Assembly: GCF_014274685.1 (NCBI RefSeq)
Contig: NZ_CP060393.1
Location: 4,089,501 to 4,153,500 of the forward strand
Source of the DNA: Edaphobacter sp. 4G125
Lineage (GTDB): Bacteria > Acidobacteriota > Terriglobia > Terriglobales > Acidobacteriaceae
Reading direction: 5' to 3'
Length of the DNA: 64,000 nucleotides
Of this stretch, positions 1 through 9,810 are shown one piece after another. The notes beneath the pieces are model-generated. The model saw only the letters and a program-made list of their open reading frames with translations, ran no database searches and was not told where the DNA came from. Positions within the stretch are counted from its first letter, which is position 1; each line of letters starts with the position of its first letter. Position numbers and translations under genes: made by a program.

Positions 1-605
1 ATCACCTGTTCATGCAGCTGACCATCGGCTGTAAGGGCGTAAATCCCGCGCAACCCGAAATAGCCTCCGCCAGCCGAGCCACCCAGTTTGCGTTCGGAAG
101 CTGGAACGGGTCCTGCCTGAGGAGGAGGCGCCGCAGGCGCAGCTCCCGGCTTGGCAGCAGGCCGCCTCGCACGGAAGTTGATCACCGGTGGAGCCTCAGC
201 GACAGCCGCCAGGCTCGTTGCACCACACGCTGGAGCAATATCATAGTGCTTCGTCCAAAGCATCGTGCCGAGCTCGGAATCGACAGCGTACAGGTCCTGC
301 GCTCCCGGCCAGATCACAAAATCCTTAAAGCCTTTGGCATTGATCAATCTCGCGGCGAGAAGCGGCTCGTTGTAGGACTGGCTGTCCTTCGCCGGTGGCG
401 TACCGAGCTGAATCTTCCAGAGAAACTTGAAATCCTTCGCAAGATTCTCCTTCGTCATCGCGGTCTCGACCTTCTGCCAACCGCTATGCGCCGCGTCGTT
501 TCGCGGAGAACTCCAGTTACCGGGCGCCTGTGCTGCTGCCCACGGAAGACAGCAAACCGCCGTCGCGAACGAAAAACCCATGGAAAGACCGAACCATTTC
601 TTCAT
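1..605 (-). CDS. PQQ-like beta-propeller protein, N-terminal part (runs off the left edge)
   Basis: Read from the reverse strand, an ATG at 605 opens a frame that stays open to base 1, so only the first 201 codons are present. The product starts with a typical signal peptide (MKKWFGLSMGFSFATAVCCL, then LPWAAAQA), so it is exported. After the signal comes WSSPRNDAAHSGWQ, which parallels the start of the neighbouring propeller (SSYNPQRDAWQRHE), then FLWKIQLG and LYAVDSELGTMLWTKHY, the usual blade pattern of quinoprotein-type (PF13360) propellers. A Pro/Ala-rich linker sits around residues 150-170. It begins 33 bases after the stop of the upstream propeller gene and is probably co-transcribed with it. 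Catalytic activity cannot be judged from this fragment, and a non-enzymatic propeller is possible. Confidence 0.8.
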   Translation of the reverse strand, partial: MKKWFGLSMGFSFATAVCCLPWAAAQAPGNWSSPRNDAAHSGWQKVETAMTKENLAKDFKFLWKIQLGTPPAKDSQSYNEPLLAARLINAKGFKDFVIWPGAQDLYAVDSELGTMLWTKHYDIAPACGATSLAAVAEAPPVINFRARRPAAKPGAAPAAPPPQAGPVPASERKLGGSAGGGYFGLRGIYALTADGQLHEQV

Positions 606-638: not shown

Positions 639-2243
639 TTATTTAATGCCGAAGCAGTAGACCGTTCCATCAAACGTTCCGAACAGGATGCGCCCGCCTG
701 CAACCGACAGCCCCGCCTGGTGCAGGAAAGACACGATCTGGTCTCCGCTTGAATAGAGCTCCTTGCCCGTTTGTCCATCCAGTACATAAAGCTTCGCCGG
801 AATCGAGCGTTTGATTCTGTCCTCCGCCGAATAAAGTCCACCCTCTACCTCATTGGCCTGGCCCGTATATTCCCCACCGGCCAAAGCAAACACCAACCCA
901 TTCGCAACCACAGGCGGCTCCGCCGTCATCATGTCCTGCGACTGCCACGCATTCGTCAGCACCGTCTTCCCGTTCTTCTCTTCCACCTTGAAGGCCAGGA
1001 TGCCGCCGTTCGGTGTGTCTCCGTAATTGATCGGGAACTTGATCGTCGTCGGGCCTCCATTCGGAGCCAGTACCCACTGTGTTCCCTTCTTGTCCTTCCA
1101 GGCCGCAAAGCTACCCCACGTACCTTCTGTCTGGAAGTTCACATTCGCATTCGCAATCAGCTCCGATCGAAACAGCGGCGTCTGATGGTCTGCTCCTCCG
1201 AGCGACTTGCTATCCAGAAGGAAGAACCTTCCTTCTTTGCCTCCTCCCACAAGCACATCGCGTCCTTTGTAAGGAAACACCACTGGCGTGGTGTTCATGT
1301 CCAGGTCGCGCTGGGTAAGCCACTTATAGTTCGAGGGCGTGTAGTAATCCTTGAGCGTCAGCGTGTCATTGGCAAAGGTATATGCCTGAAAGCTCGTCGA
1401 GAGCTGCCCCGTCTTCGCGTCATAAGGATGATCCGCAGACTCAAAGTAGATCGTCCCGTCCGATCCGACTGACGGACCCGCTGTTCCCCACAATCCTCCC
1501 TGCGGAGGTGAGGAGACCGTCACCTTCTTCGTCACGGTGTTATATGCATACAGCGCATTCGCTACGCCGCCGCATCCCTGGCCTGTAATCGTATAGACAA
1601 CTCCATTCACCAGATTCAGACCATAGGGCTTGCCATAGATGTTCTTCAAGATCTGGACCGGGGCCTCTTTTTCGTCTCCCGTTCCAGGATCGATCATGTG
1701 CAGATAGCCATCTACGGTCAGCACATAAAGCACCCGCTCTGCAGCTCCCGCTGGAGTGATCACAGGATTTGCGCTCAGCGCATTCGTGCAGATAAAGCCG
1801 CGTCCCTCACCGGGCTCCTGCGGTTGGCTCGACGCCCACTTCAGCTTCTTCTGCCAGATCAGCGCACCCGTATCCGCATCGACCACATAAACGTCGTCCG
1901 CGCTACCCGCAAAGACCGCGATCGTCTTGACGCCCGTGTCCGTCTTAATCCCCGAGGCGACCATCGGCTCGCGGAAAGACTGCATTCCCATCGTCTTGTT
2001 ATCGGTCTTCAGTTTCCAGAGCAGTTGAATCTTACCTGCATTCTGGGCCGTAATCTTCGTCTCATGCCGCTGCCACGCATCGCGTTGCGGGTTGTAGCTG
2101 CTCGTCGTCCACTCCGGAGAATGGGCTGCGGCTTTCCCCTGGGCAAAACAGGTGCCAGAGGCCCCGACCCCCAAAGCGCCTGCAAGCGACAAAGCAACGG
2201 TACGCGTCAGCATTGACGCTCCAGATAGGCTGCGTACTTTCAT
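639..2243 (-). CDS. Exported PQQ-binding-like beta-propeller protein
   Basis: 534 residues from the ATG at 2243, chosen because ACGAGG lies at normal spacing before it and because the product then starts with a clean signal peptide (MKVRSLSGASM..., ending near FAQG). The open frame extends upstream to 2462, but that extension would cover the promoter and palindrome. The mature protein consists of propeller blades with patterns such as VYVVDADTGALIWQKKL, YLHMIDPGTGDE and LYVLDGQTGKELY, typical of quinoprotein-like repeats. A GQGCGG stretch and CTNALS add two cysteines, but no adjacent Cys-Cys pair as in PQQ alcohol dehydrogenases is evident, so dehydrogenase activity is uncertain. It heads a minus-strand pair with the next propeller gene and is divergent from the di-heme peroxidase gene. 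A strong promoter and a palindrome precede it. Confidence 0.85.
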   Translation of the reverse strand: MKVRSLSGASMLTRTVALSLAGALGVGASGTCFAQGKAAAHSPEWTTSSYNPQRDAWQRHETKITAQNAGKIQLLWKLKTDNKTMGMQSFREPMVASGIKTDTGVKTIAVFAGSADDVYVVDADTGALIWQKKLKWASSQPQEPGEGRGFICTNALSANPVITPAGAAERVLYVLTVDGYLHMIDPGTGDEKEAPVQILKNIYGKPYGLNLVNGVVYTITGQGCGGVANALYAYNTVTKKVTVSSPPQGGLWGTAGPSVGSDGTIYFESADHPYDAKTGQLSTSFQAYTFANDTLTLKDYYTPSNYKWLTQRDLDMNTTPVVFPYKGRDVLVGGGKEGRFFLLDSKSLGGADHQTPLFRSELIANANVNFQTEGTWGSFAAWKDKKGTQWVLAPNGGPTTIKFPINYGDTPNGGILAFKVEEKNGKTVLTNAWQSQDMMTAEPPVVANGLVFALAGGEYTGQANEVEGGLYSAEDRIKRSIPAKLYVLDGQTGKELYSSGDQIVSFLHQAGLSVAGGRILFGTFDGTVYCFGIK

Positions 2244-2336: not shown

Positions 2337-2350
2337 ATGAGACGTCTCAT
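2337..2350. promoter_or_regulatory. Perfect 14-bp palindrome ATGAGACGTCTCAT, candidate operator (copy 1)
   Basis: Perfect dyad in the divergent region between the quinoprotein gene and the di-heme peroxidase gene. Its inner 12 bases, TGAGACGTCTCA, recur exactly at 6903-6914 in another divergent promoter region 4.6 kb away. It lies about 10 bases downstream of the -10 element of the minus-strand promoter. The binding protein is unknown. Confidence 0.6.
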
Positions 2351-2359
2351 TTCGAGAGC

Positions 2360-2389
2360 ATCCTACTGACGCGCATTCAGGCCTGTCAA
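2360..2389 (-). promoter_or_regulatory. Sigma70-type promoter of the quinoprotein pair
   Basis: On the minus strand, TTGACA (2389-2384) is followed after 18 bases by TAGGAT (2365-2360). The likely start site is a few bases further on, which places the palindrome at 2337-2350 just downstream of the start, a usual position for a repressor operator. Confidence 0.6.
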
Positions 2390-2527
2390 CATTAAATCTG
2401 ACCCCCTGCTTAAACTTTCCCATTGCTCCTGCGTCCTTCAAAAAGAGGAATGAATCGAGCACACCAATCCACCTCTCTCCGGTCCGGCCTGCAAATTCGC
2501 TCCATAACCATTAGGCTGGAGAAGGTT

Positions 2528-3631
2528 ATGACCTGCAACGAATCTCATCCATGCTTCCTCCGGTTCGTGCAGAGATACCTCTTTCTCTCTCTTTTTCTCG
2601 CCCTTCCCCTGAGTCTCGCGGGATGTAAATCGGCTGTCTCCGCAAAACCCATCGGCACGCCGATTCACATCCAGTCCCCCCTGGGACTCCCACCGGTTCC
2701 CATTCCCGCCGATAATCCCCCTACGGCAGAAACCATCGCACTTGGCCGTCGTCTCTTCTACGATCCTCAACTCTCCAAGGACAACACTCTCTCCTGTGCA
2801 AGCTGCCATAAACCGCAGTTCTACTTCACTGACGGCCTCCGGGTTTCGAAAGGAGTAGGTGGAGCCACAGGAGTCCGCAATGCCCCCACCCTTCTCAACG
2901 TCGCCTATCAACCCTTTCAATTCTGGGACGGGCGCGCCCTGACTCTAGAAACTCAGGCCGCCTCGCCCATGTCCGATCCCGTGGAGATGAATCAGCCTCA
3001 CAAAATTTCCGTTTCCAAGCTCACTCACGACCCCACCTATCCTCCGCTCTTCCGCGAAGCCTTCGGGACCAGCAACATTACTCTTGAGCGCATCGAAAAT
3101 GCGCTCGCCAGCTTCGAACGCACTCTTCTCAGCGGGAACTCCGCCTTCGATCATTATCAGTTCGGTGGCGATAGCCACGCCCTCACACCAGAACAGGTGC
3201 GCGGCCTGGCCGTCTTCCTCGACCCCAATCGAGGCAACTGCGCTTCCTGCCACACCATCAGTGCTCAATATGCCCTCTTTACCGATGGCAAATTCCACAA
3301 CACGGGAGAAGGTGTCACCGACGAAGGAACCTTCAAAGACGTCGGCCGCTTTCAGCAGACCCACGTCGAAACCGACCGTGGAGCCTTCAAAACTCCCACG
3401 CTTCGCAACGTCGCTAAAACCGCTCCTTATATGCACGATGGAAGCCTTCAGACGCTGCGCCAGGTCGTCGACTTCTACGCAGGAGGAGGAAATTCCAATC
3501 CCGATCTCGATAAAGAGATGAAAAGCATTCACCTCTCCGGTCAGGATCGCGCGGATCTCGTTGAGTTTCTACAATCTCTTACAGGCGATCTCCCGCCGAA
3601 CGTCGGACCTCCAGCAAAGGACAAAGAATAA
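2528..3631 (+). CDS. Di-heme cytochrome c peroxidase / MauG-family lipoprotein
   Basis: 367 residues from the ATG at 2528, which has GGAG six bases upstream; the frame is open from 2423 but without a better start. An N-terminal hydrophobic segment ends in a lipobox (LAGC, Cys33), so the protein is probably a lipoprotein. Two c-type heme sites are visible: CASCH at 90-94 and CASCH at 238-242, with the conserved PYMHDGS (Met302) near the second heme and the family motifs RNAPTLLN and FWDGRA. These features fit bacterial cytochrome c peroxidases or MauG-like enzymes, which handle peroxide or oxidise periplasmic partners. It is first in a tight three-gene run with a cupredoxin-like and a YVTN lipoprotein, which suggests one electron-transfer unit rather than simple peroxide defence. 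Confidence 0.92.
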   Translation: MTCNESHPCFLRFVQRYLFLSLFLALPLSLAGCKSAVSAKPIGTPIHIQSPLGLPPVPIPADNPPTAETIALGRRLFYDPQLSKDNTLSCASCHKPQFYFTDGLRVSKGVGGATGVRNAPTLLNVAYQPFQFWDGRALTLETQAASPMSDPVEMNQPHKISVSKLTHDPTYPPLFREAFGTSNITLERIENALASFERTLLSGNSAFDHYQFGGDSHALTPEQVRGLAVFLDPNRGNCASCHTISAQYALFTDGKFHNTGEGVTDEGTFKDVGRFQQTHVETDRGAFKTPTLRNVAKTAPYMHDGSLQTLRQVVDFYAGGGNSNPDLDKEMKSIHLSGQDRADLVEFLQSLTGDLPPNVGPPAKDKE

Positions 3632-3633
3632 AT

Positions 3634-4416
3634 ATGACCCGCAGCCTTCGCAGACTCATCCCTCTTTGCCTTGTCTCCGCTCTTCTGCCCATCGGATGCT
3701 CCCGCAAATCGGAGCAGACTGCGCCCGCCAAAACCGCTCAACCAGCAGTCACCTATTTCCACGTCGATCCTGCCACTGCTGGATCTATCACCGGGACCAT
3801 TCGCTACACCGGCAAACTACCTCCGCGTAAAGCGATCGACATGAGTGAAGACCCTGCCTGTGTCGCAGCGCATCATGGCAAAACCTATGATGAATCGCTC
3901 GCTGTAAGCACCCACCGTTCGCTGGCAAACGTCTTCGTCTACATCAAGAGCGGCCTCGAAGGAAAGAACTTCCCCACGCCCACCGAACCCGTCGTCATCG
4001 ACCAGAGCGGCTGCTGGTTCCATCCCCATGTCCTCGGAATCCAGGTAAACCAGCCCTTACAGATTGTTAACTCCGACCCGGTGACTCATAACATTCATCC
4101 CATGGCCGAAATCAATCGCGAGTGGAACCATAGTCAGGGCCCCGGCGATGCTCCGCTCAATCGCAAGTTCATCAAGCCCGAGATCATGATCCCGGTAAAG
4201 TGCAATATCCATAGCTGGATGCACGCCTACATCGGAGTCCTCGATCATCCATACTTCTCCGTCTCGAAAGACGACGGTTCTTTCACCATCAGCAACCTTC
4301 CGCCCGGAACCTACACTCTCGCCGTGTGGCAGGAAAAGCTGGGAACGCAGGAGCAGCAGATCACTATCGCTCCTCAGCAACACGCTACTGCCGACTTCAC
4401 CTACAAAGGAAAATAA
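3634..4416 (+). CDS. Cupredoxin-like lipoprotein with C-terminal carboxypeptidase-regulatory domain
   Basis: 260 residues. The lipobox LLPIGC puts the lipidated cysteine at 22. The middle of the protein looks like a type 1 copper site of the methylamine-utilisation/rusticyanin sort: THNIH (His152, His155), then KCNIHSWMH with Cys190, His193 and Met196. The C-terminal third (DGSFTISNLPPGTYTLAVWQ) is a carboxypeptidase-regulatory-like beta domain. It starts two bases after the peroxidase stop and ends three bases before the YVTN gene, so the three are one operon. The family relation and copper ligands are read from the motif; a role as electron carrier for the di-heme protein is inference. Confidence 0.82.
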   Translation: MTRSLRRLIPLCLVSALLPIGCSRKSEQTAPAKTAQPAVTYFHVDPATAGSITGTIRYTGKLPPRKAIDMSEDPACVAAHHGKTYDESLAVSTHRSLANVFVYIKSGLEGKNFPTPTEPVVIDQSGCWFHPHVLGIQVNQPLQIVNSDPVTHNIHPMAEINREWNHSQGPGDAPLNRKFIKPEIMIPVKCNIHSWMHAYIGVLDHPYFSVSKDDGSFTISNLPPGTYTLAVWQEKLGTQEQQITIAPQQHATADFTYKGK

Positions 4417-4419
4417 CGA

Positions 4420-5490
4420 ATGCCTAAGACTTTCAATCGAGCTCTCTTCTTCGCCTGTGCATTCTCTCTGCTGATTGGTTGCAAGTCGCAGAACACTGCC
4501 ACTACTCCTGCCTCCCCTGCACCTCCCGCAGAATCCGGTGCGCCAAAGATCTACGTCACCAACGAAGTCTCCGGCGATCTCTCCATCATCGACAGCGGAA
4601 ACTACAATGTTCTGGCCACTGTTCCTCTCGGCAAGCGTCCTCGTGGGATCCACGCCAGCCCCGATCAAAAGACAATCTATGTCGCGCTCAGCGGAACCCC
4701 CATCGCCGGCCCCGACGTCGACGAGAGCACGCTTCCCCCTGCCGATAAAAGCGCAGACGGAATCGGCATCTTCGATGTCGTGCAGCGAAAGATCGTCAAA
4801 ATCATCCCTGGAGGCTCCGATCCTGAAAATTTCGATATCAGCCCCGACGGAAAACAGCTCTACATCTCCAACGAGGACATCTCCAGCGTAAGCATCATCG
4901 ACATTGCTTCAGGCACCATCGTCAAAACCCTCAAGATGGGCGGCCAGCCTGAAGGAGTCAAAGTCACTCCGGATGGCAAACAAGTCTACGTCACCTCCGA
5001 AGAAAACAGCGAGATCTCTGTGCTCGATCCCGCAGCCGGAAAGATCGTCTCCACCTTCAAGGTTGGCCACCGCCCTCGTAATGTCGCCTTTACGCCAGAT
5101 GGCAAGCTCGCCTACATCAATGCGGAAAACGATGGCACCGTCGTCGTTGTCGATACAAAGCGGCACAAAGTCGTCAAGACTATCCAGATTGGGCAGCCTG
5201 GCATCATCAAGCCCATGTTTGTTCTTCTCTCACCCGATGCGAAAAAGCTCTACGTCAGCACCGGTCGAGGTCACAAGGTCTTCACCATCGACACCGCAAC
5301 CGACAAGGTTCTCGGTTCGGTCGAGGTCGGTCAGCGTCCCTGGGGAATCGCGCTCTCACCTGATGGAAACACGCTCTACTCTGCCAATGGTCCGTCGAAT
5401 GACGTCACCGCTGTGGATGTCGCTACAAACTCGGTCATCAAAAAGGTGCAGGCAGGCAAAGGCCCCTGGGGAATCATCGTCCTGAAATAA
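4420..5490 (+). CDS. YVTN-family beta-propeller lipoprotein
   Basis: 356 residues with lipobox LLIGC (Cys21). The rest is a run of about seven YVTN-type blades, for example IYVTNEVSGDLSIID, LYISNEDISSVSIID, VYVTSEENSEISVLD, AYINAENDGTVVVVD and TLYSANGPSNDVTAVD. Such propellers are common periplasmic partners of quinoprotein and cytochrome systems and have no known catalytic residues. It is the last gene of the peroxidase/cupredoxin operon and is followed by a strong hairpin. The function is not predictable beyond a binding or scaffold role in the envelope. Confidence 0.88.
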   Translation: MPKTFNRALFFACAFSLLIGCKSQNTATTPASPAPPAESGAPKIYVTNEVSGDLSIIDSGNYNVLATVPLGKRPRGIHASPDQKTIYVALSGTPIAGPDVDESTLPPADKSADGIGIFDVVQRKIVKIIPGGSDPENFDISPDGKQLYISNEDISSVSIIDIASGTIVKTLKMGGQPEGVKVTPDGKQVYVTSEENSEISVLDPAAGKIVSTFKVGHRPRNVAFTPDGKLAYINAENDGTVVVVDTKRHKVVKTIQIGQPGIIKPMFVLLSPDAKKLYVSTGRGHKVFTIDTATDKVLGSVEVGQRPWGIALSPDGNTLYSANGPSNDVTAVDVATNSVIKKVQAGKGPWGIIVLK

Positions 5491-5519
5491 ATACAACACC
5501 CAAAGCTCGTTATGCAGTG

Positions 5520-5552
5520 CAAAGAGCCCGCGACTTTATCGTGGGCTCTTTG
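5520..5552. terminator. Bidirectional hairpin between convergent operons
   Basis: CAAAGAGCCC (5520-5529) pairs with GGGCTCTTTG (5543-5552), and the inner bases extend the stem around a loop of about five bases. It sits between the YVTN gene and the convergent anti-sigma gene and can serve both. Confidence 0.75.
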
Positions 5553-5568
5553 CCGAACGCTCCTTCGC

Positions 5569-6339
5569 TTACACCGGTCTTCGCGTATGAAAGTACTTCT
5601 GATAGGCGGCAATCCAGTTGCTCGCGATCTCGCGCTGCGCTTGCGCGAGTGTGATCTTCCTCTCACAGACCATCCGTGAAAGATGACGCTCCAACGCATC
5701 TTTCGCGTGTGCGTTCCACGTCGTCTCCTTATAGGACTGTGGCCACAGATTCCGCACATCGTCCGTACCACCCAGTTGCGGACTGATCAGATAGTCCACC
5801 TGAAAGTCCTTCGCCGAATGCTCCATCGAGATCCCATATTCCCGAAAAACTGCCTTCTGCGTTTCTTGTGGAAGCTCAGGATCAAAATCGTTGTCGTCAT
5901 TCGCGGAGCACACGGCTGCGAGCTCGACCGGTCTCGTCATCCCTGGAGTCAGCCCGCGGTTCGGCAAAGAAAACGTAATCTCGCCATTCGATCTCTGCCA
6001 ACGCGGCAAACATACCAACACAGCGACCACACACGCCGCAGCTCCAGCCCAACGCAGCTTCTCCGCGCCCGAGATTCCCTTCATCCAACCACGAACGCCG
6101 GAACGCTTCACCGCCGCAAGCTCTGATCCCGGCTCACGATGCACATCCGATATCGTTCCACTCAAATCAGCATTCAAGGAACTGTTCAGCTCTTCTGCAA
6201 TCCCTCGCGTCTCTGCCAACGCAGCGCGACACTCACAGCACTCTTTGAGATGCGTCTCCGCGCGCGATACCTCCTCCAGCGACATCTCTCCATCGACAAA
6301 CTGAATCCGTTCTGTTTGAGATAAGTGGCCCAGTCTCAC
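5569..6339 (-). CDS. Membrane anti-sigma factor with HNH-like periplasmic domain
   Basis: 256 residues starting at GTG 6339, overlapping the sigma stop codon by GTGA and preceded by a near-perfect GGAGGTGA, so translation is coupled. Residues 30-37 (HLKECCEC) form the zinc-binding H-x3-C-x2-C of anti-sigma (ZAS/zf-HC2) domains. A single membrane helix lies near 96-113. The outer part, about 123-250, resembles small exported HNH-type proteins: TPGMTRP, a first VC (144), KAVFREYGI, VDYLISPQLGG, NLWPQ, MVC (225) and AIA-like helices ending YQKYF. In that family the core is usually VDHLI.LELGG; here the histidine position is Tyr183, so nuclease activity is doubtful and a sensor role is my inference. 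Confidence 0.85.
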   Translation of the reverse strand: MRLGHLSQTERIQFVDGEMSLEEVSRAETHLKECCECRAALAETRGIAEELNSSLNADLSGTISDVHREPGSELAAVKRSGVRGWMKGISGAEKLRWAGAAACVVAVLVCLPRWQRSNGEITFSLPNRGLTPGMTRPVELAAVCSANDDNDFDPELPQETQKAVFREYGISMEHSAKDFQVDYLISPQLGGTDDVRNLWPQSYKETTWNAHAKDALERHLSRMVCERKITLAQAQREIASNWIAAYQKYFHTRRPV

Positions 6340-6899
6340 GAGTCACCTCCTTCGCTTCGCCGCAACCGCTCCAATGACCGGCCTAGCGAATTCGCTACTC
6401 CTCCGAGAGAGATTCCTAACACCTCCGCAATCTCCCGATACTTTAAACCTTCAGCCCGCAGTTGCAGGCACAAACGGTCTATCTCTGGCAGCGCATCAAA
6501 AACTCTTCGGAGCCGCATCTGTCTCTCCGTAAAGAGAAAGTCTTCCTCAGGACTTGGAACATCGCTTAAAACTCCGTCCCATCCTTCACTCTTTCCAAAA
6601 TCTTCTCTGCGGTATCGGATTCTCCGTTTTAAGGCCATGTGATGGGTCACACGAAAGATCCATCCCGCCAGGTTGTCGCGTGGTTTTCCCAATTCAAGAT
6701 GATGGAACAGCGCCAGGAATACTTCGTGGATTACATCCTCTGCATCCTGCATCTTCAATCCCAGGGAGATCGAATATCGAAGCAGGCGCAGGCGAAACTC
6801 ACCGTAAAACTGAAGCAGTTCTTCTTCAAGCGCGAGGGTCTCCTCTCCAGAGGGAAGCCTCTCCAGCGTCGCCGATTTCAATTTAGAGATTTCAAGCAT
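6336..6899 (-). CDS. ECF-type RNA polymerase sigma factor
   Basis: 187 residues from ATG 6899. Region 2 is visible as DAEDVIHEVFLALFHHL followed by NLAGWIFRVTHHMA, and region 4 as LPEIDRLCLQLRAEGL then YREIAEVLGISLGGVANSL, the helix-turn-helix that reads the -35 element. It is translationally coupled to the membrane anti-sigma gene and divergent from a TonB-dependent receptor, the usual layout for a sigma factor responding to an envelope signal. No ribosome binding site precedes the ATG; the first base after it upstream is one away from a 16-bp palindrome, so the mRNA may be leaderless, or a later start may be used. Confidence 0.92.
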   Translation of the reverse strand: MLEISKLKSATLERLPSGEETLALEEELLQFYGEFRLRLLRYSISLGLKMQDAEDVIHEVFLALFHHLELGKPRDNLAGWIFRVTHHMALKRRIRYRREDFGKSEGWDGVLSDVPSPEEDFLFTERQMRLRRVFDALPEIDRLCLQLRAEGLKYREIAEVLGISLGGVANSLGRSLERLRRSEGGDS

Positions 6900-6900
6900 A

Positions 6901-6916
6901 TTTGAGACGTCTCAAA
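6901..6916. promoter_or_regulatory. Perfect 16-bp palindrome TTTGAGACGTCTCAAA, candidate operator (copy 2)
   Basis: Perfect dyad directly before the sigma-factor ATG (6899) and 144 bases upstream of the TonB receptor. It shares TGAGACGTCTCA with the site at 2337-2350. On the minus strand a TTGACT element at 6952-6947 lies about 30 bases upstream of it; in copy 1 the TTGACA is about 33 bases upstream, so the geometry is similar. Confidence 0.6.
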
Positions 6917-7059
6917 CCAAGCATTCGAACAATCCGCATGGACAGAAGTCAACCCGCTTATTTTCCGAAAAAATATCCTGAACAAAATCTCCCCTTCCGG
7001 AATATCTCATCGACACACTTCCTTCAGAATCCATCCGGCGACGTTCGCCTAAAGGTGAC

Positions 7060-9810
7060 ATGGCATCTCGTATCTCAGGCTCTCTGCTCTCTTGCTTTCT
7101 GCTCGCTTCCATCTTTACCCATGCTCAGAAGAATGAGCAACCCTCTTCAAATCGCAGCGAGATCAGCATCCACGTCACCGACCCCTCGGGAGCAGCTCTC
7201 CGAGCCCGCTGCGCAGTCGATGGGCTCTCCAATTCGGTCGCCATCTCCGTTCCAACGGATTCGCACGGGACCTGCACTGCACATGATCTCCCCTTCGGAG
7301 GGTATCGCATCGAGATCTCCCGCAACGGATTCGCCAGCCGCTCCCTCCAGCTCGACATCGATTCCACCGCACCGTTCCAACGAACAATCGCTCTGCAGGT
7401 TCAGGGAGTCGCTACGGCAATCACTGTTGTTTCCCCCACTCCTATCGGCAACGAGAGCCTTTCTATCGAACAAACCCCCGTTCCAGTCCAGAGCCTTACC
7501 GCGGACGACATCGGCCATACCAATGCCCTTGATCTCACCGATGTCCTGAATAAGCGCATCAACGGCATCTACATTAATGAGAACAACGGCAATCCCTTCC
7601 AGCCCGATGTTAACTATCGCGGCTACACCGCATCTCCTCTGCTTGGTACTCCTCAGGGACTCTCCGTCTACCTCGATGGCGTTCGTCAAAACCAGCCCTT
7701 CGGAGATGTTGTCTCCTGGGACCTCATCCCTAAAGTCGCCATCCAGGACACGGAATTGATCCCCGGTTCCAATCCGCTCTTCGGGCTCAACACCTTAGGC
7801 GGTGCCATCGCAGTCCGCACAAAAGACGGATCAAACAATCAGGGACTCACTGTACAGGCGATCGGCGGGACCTTCGGCCGCGCCTCCGTCGAGGGTGAGT
7901 ACGGCGGATCAAACGGACGAGATCTCGACTGGTATCTCGCCGGCAACTACTTCCGCGAAGACGGCTGGCGCAAGTTTTCACCCTCGCAGATCAGGCAGTC
8001 CTTCGCCAAGCTGCGCTGGAACCGCGAACGCACCAGCATCGCGCTCTCCGGTGCCTATGCCATCAATAACCTCACCGGCAATGGGCTGCAGGACTTCCGC
8101 TTCCTCAACAAGGACTACAGCAGCGTCTACACCATCCCCGATACCCTCTGGGACCACTCGCCCTCACTCACTCTCAACGCCGCCCACCAGATCAGCGATC
8201 ACTGGAGCCTCTCCGGTAATCTCTACTTCCGCCACGTTCGCACCGACACCACCAACGGCGATATCAACAACGATTCTTTTGACCAATCTCTCTACAACCT
8301 CAGCGCAAGCGATATCGCTGCACTCAAAGCTGCCGGATACAGCGGCTTTCCCACGACCGGAAACTCCACCACCGAACCCTTCCCCTACTGGAGATGTATC
8401 GCTCAGGCTCTGCAAGAAGACGAGCCTGCCGAAAAGTGCACCGGCTCCATTACCAACACTCGCACCCAACAGAACAACTATGGCTTCTCTGGACTCCTCT
8501 CTTGGCGCACCGCCCATAATCTCTTCTCCGCGGGGGCCGGCTGGGATCGTAGCTCAATGACTTATCAGCAGTTATCACAGTTCGGGTATCTCAATACCGA
8601 TGGTGTCTCCATCACACCGGTCGACGCCTACGCCGATGGTTCCACGAACCAGGACGGCTCGCCCGTCGATACTCGAGTTCAGCTTCACGGTACGGTCCAG
8701 ACCCCCAGCTTCTATCTCACCGATACCTTCACCATGAATCGTTGGTCCATCACAGCGTCCGGGCGATACAACCGCACCACTGTTGACAACATTGATCGAC
8801 TTCCAGCGAATACTCCAGGACGTGGCTCTCTCACCGGAAACCATGTCTTTCAGCGATTCAATCCTGCGGTTGGTGCTACCTATCAAGCCTCCTCTCTTTT
8901 CCATCTCTATGCCAATTACAGTGAAGCCAGCCGCGCACCAACCGCAATTGAGCTGGGCTGTGCCGACCCAAACTTCCCCTGTAACCTTCCCAATGCTCTC
9001 GTCTCCGATCCGCCGCTCAACCAGGTGGTCAGCCGGACTGTAGAAGCGGGAGTTCGCAGTCGCCTACAGAACAATCTCCAATGGAGCGCAGGATATTTCT
9101 GGGGACAAAACTCTAACGACATCCTCTTCGTCGCTTCCCAACAAACGGGTTTTGGATACTTCCTCAACTTCGGCAAGACTCGCCGCCAAGGGGTCGAGCT
9201 CAACCTAAGCGGTCAGTTGTCGCACCTTGCTCTCGGCGGAGGTTATACGTTCCTCAACGCCACCTATCAGTCTTCCCAAACCGTCAATGGAGGAAGTAAC
9301 AGCACCAACGATAACAGCCTCGCTGGCTTCCCTGGAATCGATGGCGATATCGAGATCACTCCCGGAGACCGTATTCCTCAGATCCCGCAGCACGTCCTCA
9401 AGGTCTTCGCAGACTATAAGCCCACACAAAAGTGGCTCATCGACTTCAACGTCATCGCGGCCTCCAGTACTTATGCACGCGGCAACGAGAACAACCAGCA
9501 TCAACCCGATGGAACCTACTATCTTGGCTCAGGGAGTTCTCCTGCCTATGGCGTCGCAAACGTCGGAGCCCGCTATCTCTTCAGCTCTCGTCTCGAAGCA
9601 TTCCTGCAACTCAATAACATCCTCGACACGCACTACTACACCGCCGCGCAGTTAGGAACCTCCCCTTACGACAACAACGGCAAATTCATTGCACGTCCAT
9701 TTCCCTCCAACAGCAACGGAGATTATCCCGTCCGAAACACAACCTTCCTTGCCCCCGGAGCTCCCTTTACTCTCTTCGGAGGGATTCGCATCACGCTTTC
9801 GAAGAAGTAG
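7060..9810 (+). CDS. TonB-dependent outer-membrane receptor
   Basis: 916 residues; ATG 7060 follows AAAGGTGAC. A signal peptide (MASRISGSLLSCFLLASIFTHAQ) is followed by a carboxypeptidase-regulatory-like domain (about 30-115), then the plug: PVPVQSLTADDIGHTNALDL, VNYRGYTASPLLGTPQGL, VYLDGVRQNQPFGD and NPLFGLNTLGGAIAVRTKDG. The remainder is alternating beta-strand sequence of a 22-stranded barrel. Plug and barrel look more like classical siderophore/metal receptors than the very large Oar-type receptors elsewhere in this window. It is divergent from the ECF sigma/anti-sigma pair, which suggests control by that pair or by the shared palindrome. The substrate cannot be named; a metal chelate or redox cofactor used by the adjacent redox genes is an inference. 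Confidence 0.9.
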   Translation: MASRISGSLLSCFLLASIFTHAQKNEQPSSNRSEISIHVTDPSGAALRARCAVDGLSNSVAISVPTDSHGTCTAHDLPFGGYRIEISRNGFASRSLQLDIDSTAPFQRTIALQVQGVATAITVVSPTPIGNESLSIEQTPVPVQSLTADDIGHTNALDLTDVLNKRINGIYINENNGNPFQPDVNYRGYTASPLLGTPQGLSVYLDGVRQNQPFGDVVSWDLIPKVAIQDTELIPGSNPLFGLNTLGGAIAVRTKDGSNNQGLTVQAIGGTFGRASVEGEYGGSNGRDLDWYLAGNYFREDGWRKFSPSQIRQSFAKLRWNRERTSIALSGAYAINNLTGNGLQDFRFLNKDYSSVYTIPDTLWDHSPSLTLNAAHQISDHWSLSGNLYFRHVRTDTTNGDINNDSFDQSLYNLSASDIAALKAAGYSGFPTTGNSTTEPFPYWRCIAQALQEDEPAEKCTGSITNTRTQQNNYGFSGLLSWRTAHNLFSAGAGWDRSSMTYQQLSQFGYLNTDGVSITPVDAYADGSTNQDGSPVDTRVQLHGTVQTPSFYLTDTFTMNRWSITASGRYNRTTVDNIDRLPANTPGRGSLTGNHVFQRFNPAVGATYQASSLFHLYANYSEASRAPTAIELGCADPNFPCNLPNALVSDPPLNQVVSRTVEAGVRSRLQNNLQWSAGYFWGQNSNDILFVASQQTGFGYFLNFGKTRRQGVELNLSGQLSHLALGGGYTFLNATYQSSQTVNGGSNSTNDNSLAGFPGIDGDIEITPGDRIPQIPQHVLKVFADYKPTQKWLIDFNVIAASSTYARGNENNQHQPDGTYYLGSGSSPAYGVANVGARYLFSSRLEAFLQLNNILDTHYYTAAQLGTSPYDNNGKFIARPFPSNSNGDYPVRNTTFLAPGAPFTLFGGIRITLSKK

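Follow-up and report, generated by a model that had tools for sequence, protein, structure and literature searches.

The perfect 12-bp palindrome TGAGACGTCTCA occurs twice, at sites 1 and 2, in the 64-kb stretch of the Edaphobacter sp. 4G125 genome analysed here (bases 4089501–4153500; hereafter the window), and is in all likelihood the operator of P0001, a LacI-family repressor encoded 12 kb to the left of the window. This pairing of operator and repressor, which relies on comparative sequence data, would place five promoters under P0001: those of a quinoprotein/3-keto-sugar operon, an extracytoplasmic function (ECF) sigma/anti-sigma factor pair, a cytochrome/pyrroloquinoline quinone (PQQ)-type dehydrogenase operon, an ATP-binding cassette (ABC) transporter and a TonB receptor. 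The original prediction, made from the window alone, had tied the two sites to a single unknown regulator; the shared regulator is retained, and because the P0001 gene lies outside the window, between two further copies of the 12-mer, no regulator gene had then been seen.

An exact search found the 12-mer in the window only at sites 1 and 2 (Table 1), as first read, where it forms the core of a 14-bp dyad (2337–2350) and a 16-bp dyad (6901–6916) respectively. A first-order Markov model predicts 0.0064 exact copies per 64 kb, and of the perfect palindromes of 12 bp that the window contains, 15 different ones in all, no other is repeated. The whole genome (4,254,614 bp, single contig) holds five exact copies against 0.43 expected and none of the reversed control, at 3317071, 4076375, 4077668, 4091838 (site 1) and 4096403 (site 2), four of them within ~20 kb; the genome-wide count proposed with the original prediction thus shows the 12-mer to be uncommon in these 4.25 Mb. 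One-mismatch forms occur in two places only (L009 and L010), both lacking the promoter pattern described below, and matches with up to two mismatches number 89, below the 161 of the control.

The gene for P0001 (357 aa; genome 4076569–4077642) is the sole gene between the copies at 4076375 and 4077668. The protein has an N-terminal LacI helix-turn-helix (HTH) domain (PF00356, 53.8 bits; cut-off 27) and a sugar-binding core (PF00532, 103.7 bits, and PF13377, 97.0 bits, both above their cut-offs), and scores below the cut-off of the RbsR (ribose repressor) equivalog (NF007743, 220.1 bits versus 531). All 27 orthologue rows, several of which represent the same genome twice, share the hinge NLIARSL (ARSL with the inserting Leu) and the recognition helix VS[S/A]GTVSNV.

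Presence of the 12-mer follows that of the P0001 gene among relatives, as seen in two draws of genomes, the first of 250 from the family and the second of 109 further genomes at the order level. Orthologues of P0001 (62–100% identity; next match 47%) were present in 14 of the 250, and the 12-mer occurred in all 14 versus 12 of the 236 others, the latter with one copy each. The same held within genera, with the 12-mer in 5/5 genomes with an orthologue and 0/7 without in the window's genus, and in 7/7 and 0/5 respectively in genus g32. In the second draw, where orthologues were called at E<=1e-100, 12 of 14 genomes with an orthologue carried the 12-mer versus 5 of 95 without, again with one copy each, and three of those five belong to the window's genus. 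Both draws together give 26/28 versus 17/331, with two copies in none of the latter. One exception, G340, has TGAGACGACTCA, a one-mismatch form of the operator, on either side of its LacI gene, with TTGACA upstream. Moreover, each of 13 named LacI loci (14.5–21 kb; Edaphobacter, Granulicella, other Acidobacteriaceae, metagenome-assembled genomes and one titled Rhodanobacteraceae, most being the same genomes as those given G numbers here) contains one to three exact copies, and none of the reversed control. In the record of Edaphobacter modestus, a culturable relative, two sites flank the gene for a protein 88% identical to P0001.

Two candidate binders, P0001 and a second LacI protein, P0002, were compared. 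That another regulator such as P0002 binds the 12-mer, with only an indirect link to P0001, is improbable. The P0002 gene lies ~3.8 kb from the fifth site (3317071), and in G276 the 12-mer is found at the start of a LacI gene whose product is 45% identical to P0002. Nonetheless, P0002 orthologues (~60% identity or more) occur in 9 of the 250 genomes, of which only the four that also have P0001 carry the 12-mer; G130, G196 and G233 have 12-mer sites without P0002 (E<=1e-90); and the P0002 helix reads SATVSR, not SGTVSN. P0002 was accordingly rejected as the binder on its distribution across genomes. The 12-mer in G276 (L201:3141) has no TTGAC upstream.

At both window sites the palindrome lies downstream of a predicted leftward (minus-strand) promoter (Table 1). 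The gap between the −35 element and the dyad measures 33 bases at site 1 and 30 bases at site 2, in agreement with the earlier claim of dyads 30–33 bases downstream of minus-strand TTGACA/TTGACT elements, a repressor-like position. The architecture of site 1 recurs at most sites of orthologue-bearing genomes, where TTGAC was found 28–45 bases upstream on one strand at 61 of 76 distinct sites, a range fixed after the first 58 sites had been seen (28–44) and then widened by one base. Control sites from genomes without a LacI orthologue (16 of the 17, the one left out being that of G319) had TTGAC within 70 bases on either strand in 0/16 cases; dropped from the survey were repeats of a site with identical 52 bases and any site closer than 75 bases to the end of its locus. 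The usual layout is TTGACA, 18 bases, TAGNAT, 7–14 bases and the operator, which abuts the −10 element at the ABC-transporter promoters. With the transcription start placed 7 bases past the −10 element, this spacing centres the operator near +10, as is the case for lacO1. A P0001 dimer bound there, just downstream of the start of a sigma-70 promoter, would block RNA polymerase until a sugar-derived ligand frees the operator. Consistent with such a design, a combined search for the promoter and a degenerate operator in 15 of the 28 orthologue genomes returned exactly the five known places in the window's genome (G000) and no reversed-control matches in the 15 genomes.

Both window promoters point leftward, and no operator-linked promoter was seen facing the MauG gene (2528–3631, plus strand) or the TonB gene (7060–9810, plus strand). 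Of the earlier claim that the sites control a quinoprotein/peroxidase side and an ECF sigma/TonB side, the quinoprotein operon and the ECF/anti-sigma pair are therefore supported, and MauG and TonB are not.

Table 1. Predicted operators, promoters and adjoining genes at sites 1 and 2 (window positions).
Feature	Position	Strand	Remarks
Operator site 1 (TGAGACGTCTCA)	2338..2349	none	Predicted; centre at ~+10/+11 counted from the predicted start of leftward transcription
Quinoprotein operon promoter, sigma-70 type (predicted)	2360..2389	-	TTGACA 2384-2389, 18-base spacer, TAGGAT 2360-2365
Operator site 2, core of the 16-bp dyad	6903..6914	none	Predicted; spans ~+3 to +14 relative to the ECF sigma start, itself predicted
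ECF sigma gene promoter (predicted)	6923..6952	-	TTGACT 6947-6952, 18-base spacer, TCGAAT 6923-6928
quino1, first gene of the site-1 operon	639..2243	-	Start codon chosen by us; PQQ-dehydrogenase-like beta-propeller
quino2, second gene of the site-1 operon	1..605	-	Incomplete in the window; complete gene at genome 4088543-4090105
ECF sigma factor	6336..6899	-	TIGR02937, 79.2 bits (cut-off 42.9)
Probable anti-sigma factor	5569..6339	-	Overlaps the ECF gene; role proposed from position

The 12-mer might instead be a fixed part of the enzyme promoters, a DNA-structure or ECF-promoter element with no dedicated regulator, given that it is found mostly at promoters of the same catabolic module and its neighbours. 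We consider this very improbable, since at most sites the palindrome lies downstream of a sigma-70-like −10 element rather than in its place, and since the module can be followed separately from the regulator. Its marker, the 405-aa protein cupin405, occurs in 29 of the 250 genomes, 14 with the LacI orthologue and 15 without, and the 12-mer is present in 14/14 of the former and 0/15 of the latter. Absence of the 12-mer from the marker genomes without LacI indicates that the site tracks the repressor and not the enzymes, and an element borne by the module without a regulator was rejected on this count.

The operator at the head of the module is conserved. An exact 12-mer was found there in 13 of the 14 first-draw orthologue genomes, before quino1 in six (G000, G034, G130, G196, G233 and G102) and before cupin405 in seven (G148, G207, G128, G095, G180, G031 and G231); in the fourteenth, G084, the cupin405 gene is at a contig edge. 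Site 2 is lineage-specific: among 11 genomes with an ECF gene, an exact 12-mer precedes that gene in two (G000 and G277), and G034, G148, G207, G128, G302, G282, G274, G283 and G276 have an ECF homologue without it; a search of seven other stretches (L133–L136, L198, L205 and L206) gave no ECF homologue. General conservation of the ECF-gene site was thus rejected, and conservation in orthologous intergenic regions, put forward with the original prediction as a check, is borne out at site 1 and fails at site 2. Chance repetition of the palindrome, which does yield single copies in genomes without an orthologue, has a negligible probability and is contradicted for site 1 and the LacI-flanking sites by the excess and clustering of copies in the genome and by their retention at orthologous positions; site 2 alone could be a recent, functionless gain.

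Several observations weigh against assigning the operator to P0001. The genomes compared are related and the tests not independent, such that Fisher values, including that for the first draw (3e-16), overstate the association, and the second draw is only partly new, at least 6 of its 14 orthologue genomes being already among the named loci. G305 has an orthologue with no exact 12-mer in its genome and no 2-mismatch form within the 10.7 kb examined. Among the 15 marker-only genomes, eight carry a close marker (75–81%) and seven a distant one (55–58%), and some of the assemblies are incomplete (G037, 53%; G020, 76%; G137, 77%). A TVSN helix does not by itself single out P0001, as paralogues at 39–47% identity, from genomes without the 12-mer, are also TVSN, two of them VGTVSN. 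The TTGAC geometry is missing at 15 of the 76 sites, seven of these in G231, and TTGAC is likewise lacking upstream of the exact ECF-gene site in G277. G231 (L111–L117) has ten copies of the 12-mer, several of them apparently intragenic and without promoter geometry. Finally, the data reveal no operator-linked promoter driving the P0001 gene itself.

Judged by strand and spacing, the genes that P0001 would control number ~17 behind five promoters, wider than the eight genes first proposed, of which the idea of a small shared regulon survives. The site-1 operon would run leftward through quino1, quino2, cupin405, a xylose-isomerase-like TIM barrel, a Gfo/Idh oxidoreductase, a 3-keto-disaccharide hydrolase (PF06439) and a DUF4432 protein, extending beyond the window from cupin405 onwards. 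A weak Pfam PQQ match for quino1 (PF01011, 29.3 bits; cut-off 26.7) and a fold model (predicted local distance difference test, pLDDT, 73) whose best PDB matches are PQQ alcohol dehydrogenases at 12–15% identity, with BamB-type propellers matching too, suggest a likeness to PQQ propellers and nothing closer. For quino2 no Pfam family was found at E<=0.001. The 405-aa protein likewise matched no Pfam family, "cupin-like" being our own label, and its fold model (mean pLDDT 46.7) was not used.

At site 2, the leftward promoter precedes the ECF sigma gene and that of the probable anti-sigma factor, which has no Pfam match at E<=0.001 and a homologue beside the ECF gene in four relatives. The promoter at 4076375 would serve a helix-hairpin-helix (HHH)-cytochrome, a cytochrome c, an SMP-30 protein and a PQQ-type dehydrogenase (4071802–4073508; L006:5802–7508), whose best family is TIGR04528, "acido-empty-quinoprotein group A" (544 bits; cut-off 650). 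This dehydrogenase carries a DYD motif, which presumably resembles that of lanthanide enzymes, and a small protein encoded at L006:9632–10195 combines a CxxCH haem motif with a helix-hairpin-helix domain. Behind the promoter at 4077668 lie genes for a ribose/rhamnose-type ABC transporter, comprising an ATPase and two permeases, one of them fused to a binding protein; the fusion, a single 664-aa gene (L006:14137–16131) joining the permease to the periplasmic binding protein, is also found in several relatives. The fifth promoter, at 3317071, is that of an Oar-like TonB receptor clustered with rhamnose genes: a rhamnulose-1-phosphate aldolase/dehydrogenase (RhaD, 999 bits; cut-off 634), a GH106 rhamnosidase (Pfam, 226; cut-off 29) and, below their cut-offs, an L-rhamnose isomerase-like (RhaI, 484 versus 531) and a rhamnulokinase-like protein (RhaK, 315 versus 528). 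A regulator in this rhamnose cluster (L129:6372–7454) seemingly joins an IclR-type HTH to a C-terminal part resembling sugar-binding proteins, with weak NCBIfam matches to both.

Our best guess for the ligand of P0001, with roughly even chances of being right, is a compound related to L-rhamnose or to rhamnosides broken down by C3 oxidation. Rhamnose is proposed because of the rhamnose genes beside the fifth site, the gene neighbours in genus g32 and a RhaS-like binding domain. In g32 genomes G031, G095, G180 and G231 the LacI gene adjoins rhamnulokinase-like and rhamnulose-1-phosphate aldolase genes, and an operator precedes the aldolase gene, exact in G231 and with two mismatches in G095, G180 and G031. 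The transporter binding domain matches RhaS best (TIGR02637, 220.8 bits), under the equivalog cut-off of 342.25, and identity with RhaS was rejected. In G000 the TonB receptor gene is the only rhamnose-cluster gene with an operator. Speaking against rhamnose, the stretches read around the receptor sites of other species of the genus gave no RhaI, RhaD or RhaK homologue, and outside G000 and g32 the rhamnose genes near the sites read amount to one RhaK-like gene near LacI (L081).

Oxidation at C3 of a glycoside is indicated by the 3-keto hydrolase together with the Gfo/Idh enzyme, whose best family is levoglucosan dehydrogenase (NF052479, 329.1 bits); proteins with DUF1080 (PF06439) include a 3-ketotrehalose hydrolase (PMC9007349). 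The same regulator might respond to a 3-keto- or anhydrosugar resembling levoglucosan instead of rhamnose, which we rate as possible and somewhat less probable. The best match of the Gfo/Idh enzyme and the hydrolase within the module would fit such a ligand, as would the levoglucosan cluster described for Bacillus smithii, which also has LacI and sugar ABC genes (PMC7676230). However, the Gfo/Idh score misses the equivalog cut-off of 650, on which levoglucosan dehydrogenase identity was rejected, and the operator sits at the rhamnose aldolase gene in g32.

The B. smithii cluster resembles the present one in grouping LacI, a sugar ABC transporter, a Gfo/Idh-type dehydrogenase and enzymes annotated as isomerases/epimerases, and differs in that no quinoprotein, 3-keto hydrolase or TonB receptor is among the genes listed (PMC7676230) and in its dehydrogenase, since the Gfo/Idh enzyme here scores under the levoglucosan dehydrogenase cut-off. 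Most LacI-family operators are palindromes of even length with a CG centre (Ravcheev et al., 2014; PMC4052901), and by co-occurrence and position the palindrome adjoining the P0001 gene would be one of these. Like the local sugar regulons in that survey, P0001 has a LacI-type HTH and a sugar-binding domain, with operators near uptake and catabolic promoters and the regulator gene within the cluster. Unlike them, its strict core spans 12 bp, with flanks merely biased to T/A (weakly T-rich), whereas the published even motifs span 16–22 nt; the main text of the survey does not mention Acidobacteria (PMC4052901). The rhamnose regulators RhaR, RhmR and RhiR, likened here by their description, are also LacI-family proteins with rhamnose/rhamnoside uptake and catabolic targets, but they come from Actinomycetales, Chloroflexus and Rhizobiales/Erwinia and have 20-bp motifs (Rodionova et al., 2013; PMC3870299); the LacI rhamnose regulators in that text are from other phyla, and the word Acidobacteria does not appear in it. 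Finally, the LacI recognition code (Camas et al., 2010; PMC2978694) covers TVSR helices, whose Arg goes together with G at the sixth base from the centre. P0001 has in common with these proteins the recognition helix as such, the hinge Leu and the CG at the operator centre, but its helix is TVSN and half-site position 6 is T instead of the Arg-linked G, a combination that fits the logic of the TVSR rule yet falls outside its data. The exact 12-mer was not found in the literature searched.

The regulon first proposed thus holds for the most part, as a rare promoter-linked operator, conserved in relatives, with a small shared regulon; control of MauG and TonB is not supported, and site 2 is not generally conserved. 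It is very probably a new LacI-type regulon, ordinary in kind, whose unusual feature would be a lineage-specific operator in front of the ECF sigma gene. We tentatively suggest, with less than even confidence, that a LacI protein whose helix is TVSN and whose operator is a compact 12 bp represses a sugar-oxidation regulon of the Acidobacteriaceae, which in this lineage captured an ECF sigma/anti-sigma pair; if so, one sugar signal would open its own regulon and, along with it, a second layer of sigma-factor control. No description of sugar regulation in Acidobacteriaceae was found in the literature among the matches listed, and for this family of soil bacteria P0001 would define an operator with its regulator and targets, and add a LacI recognition helix that the published TVSR code does not cover. 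Unassigned quinoproteins, the 405-aa cupin-like protein and 3-keto-sugar enzymes would thereby be tied to a single signal, opening their substrate to testing.

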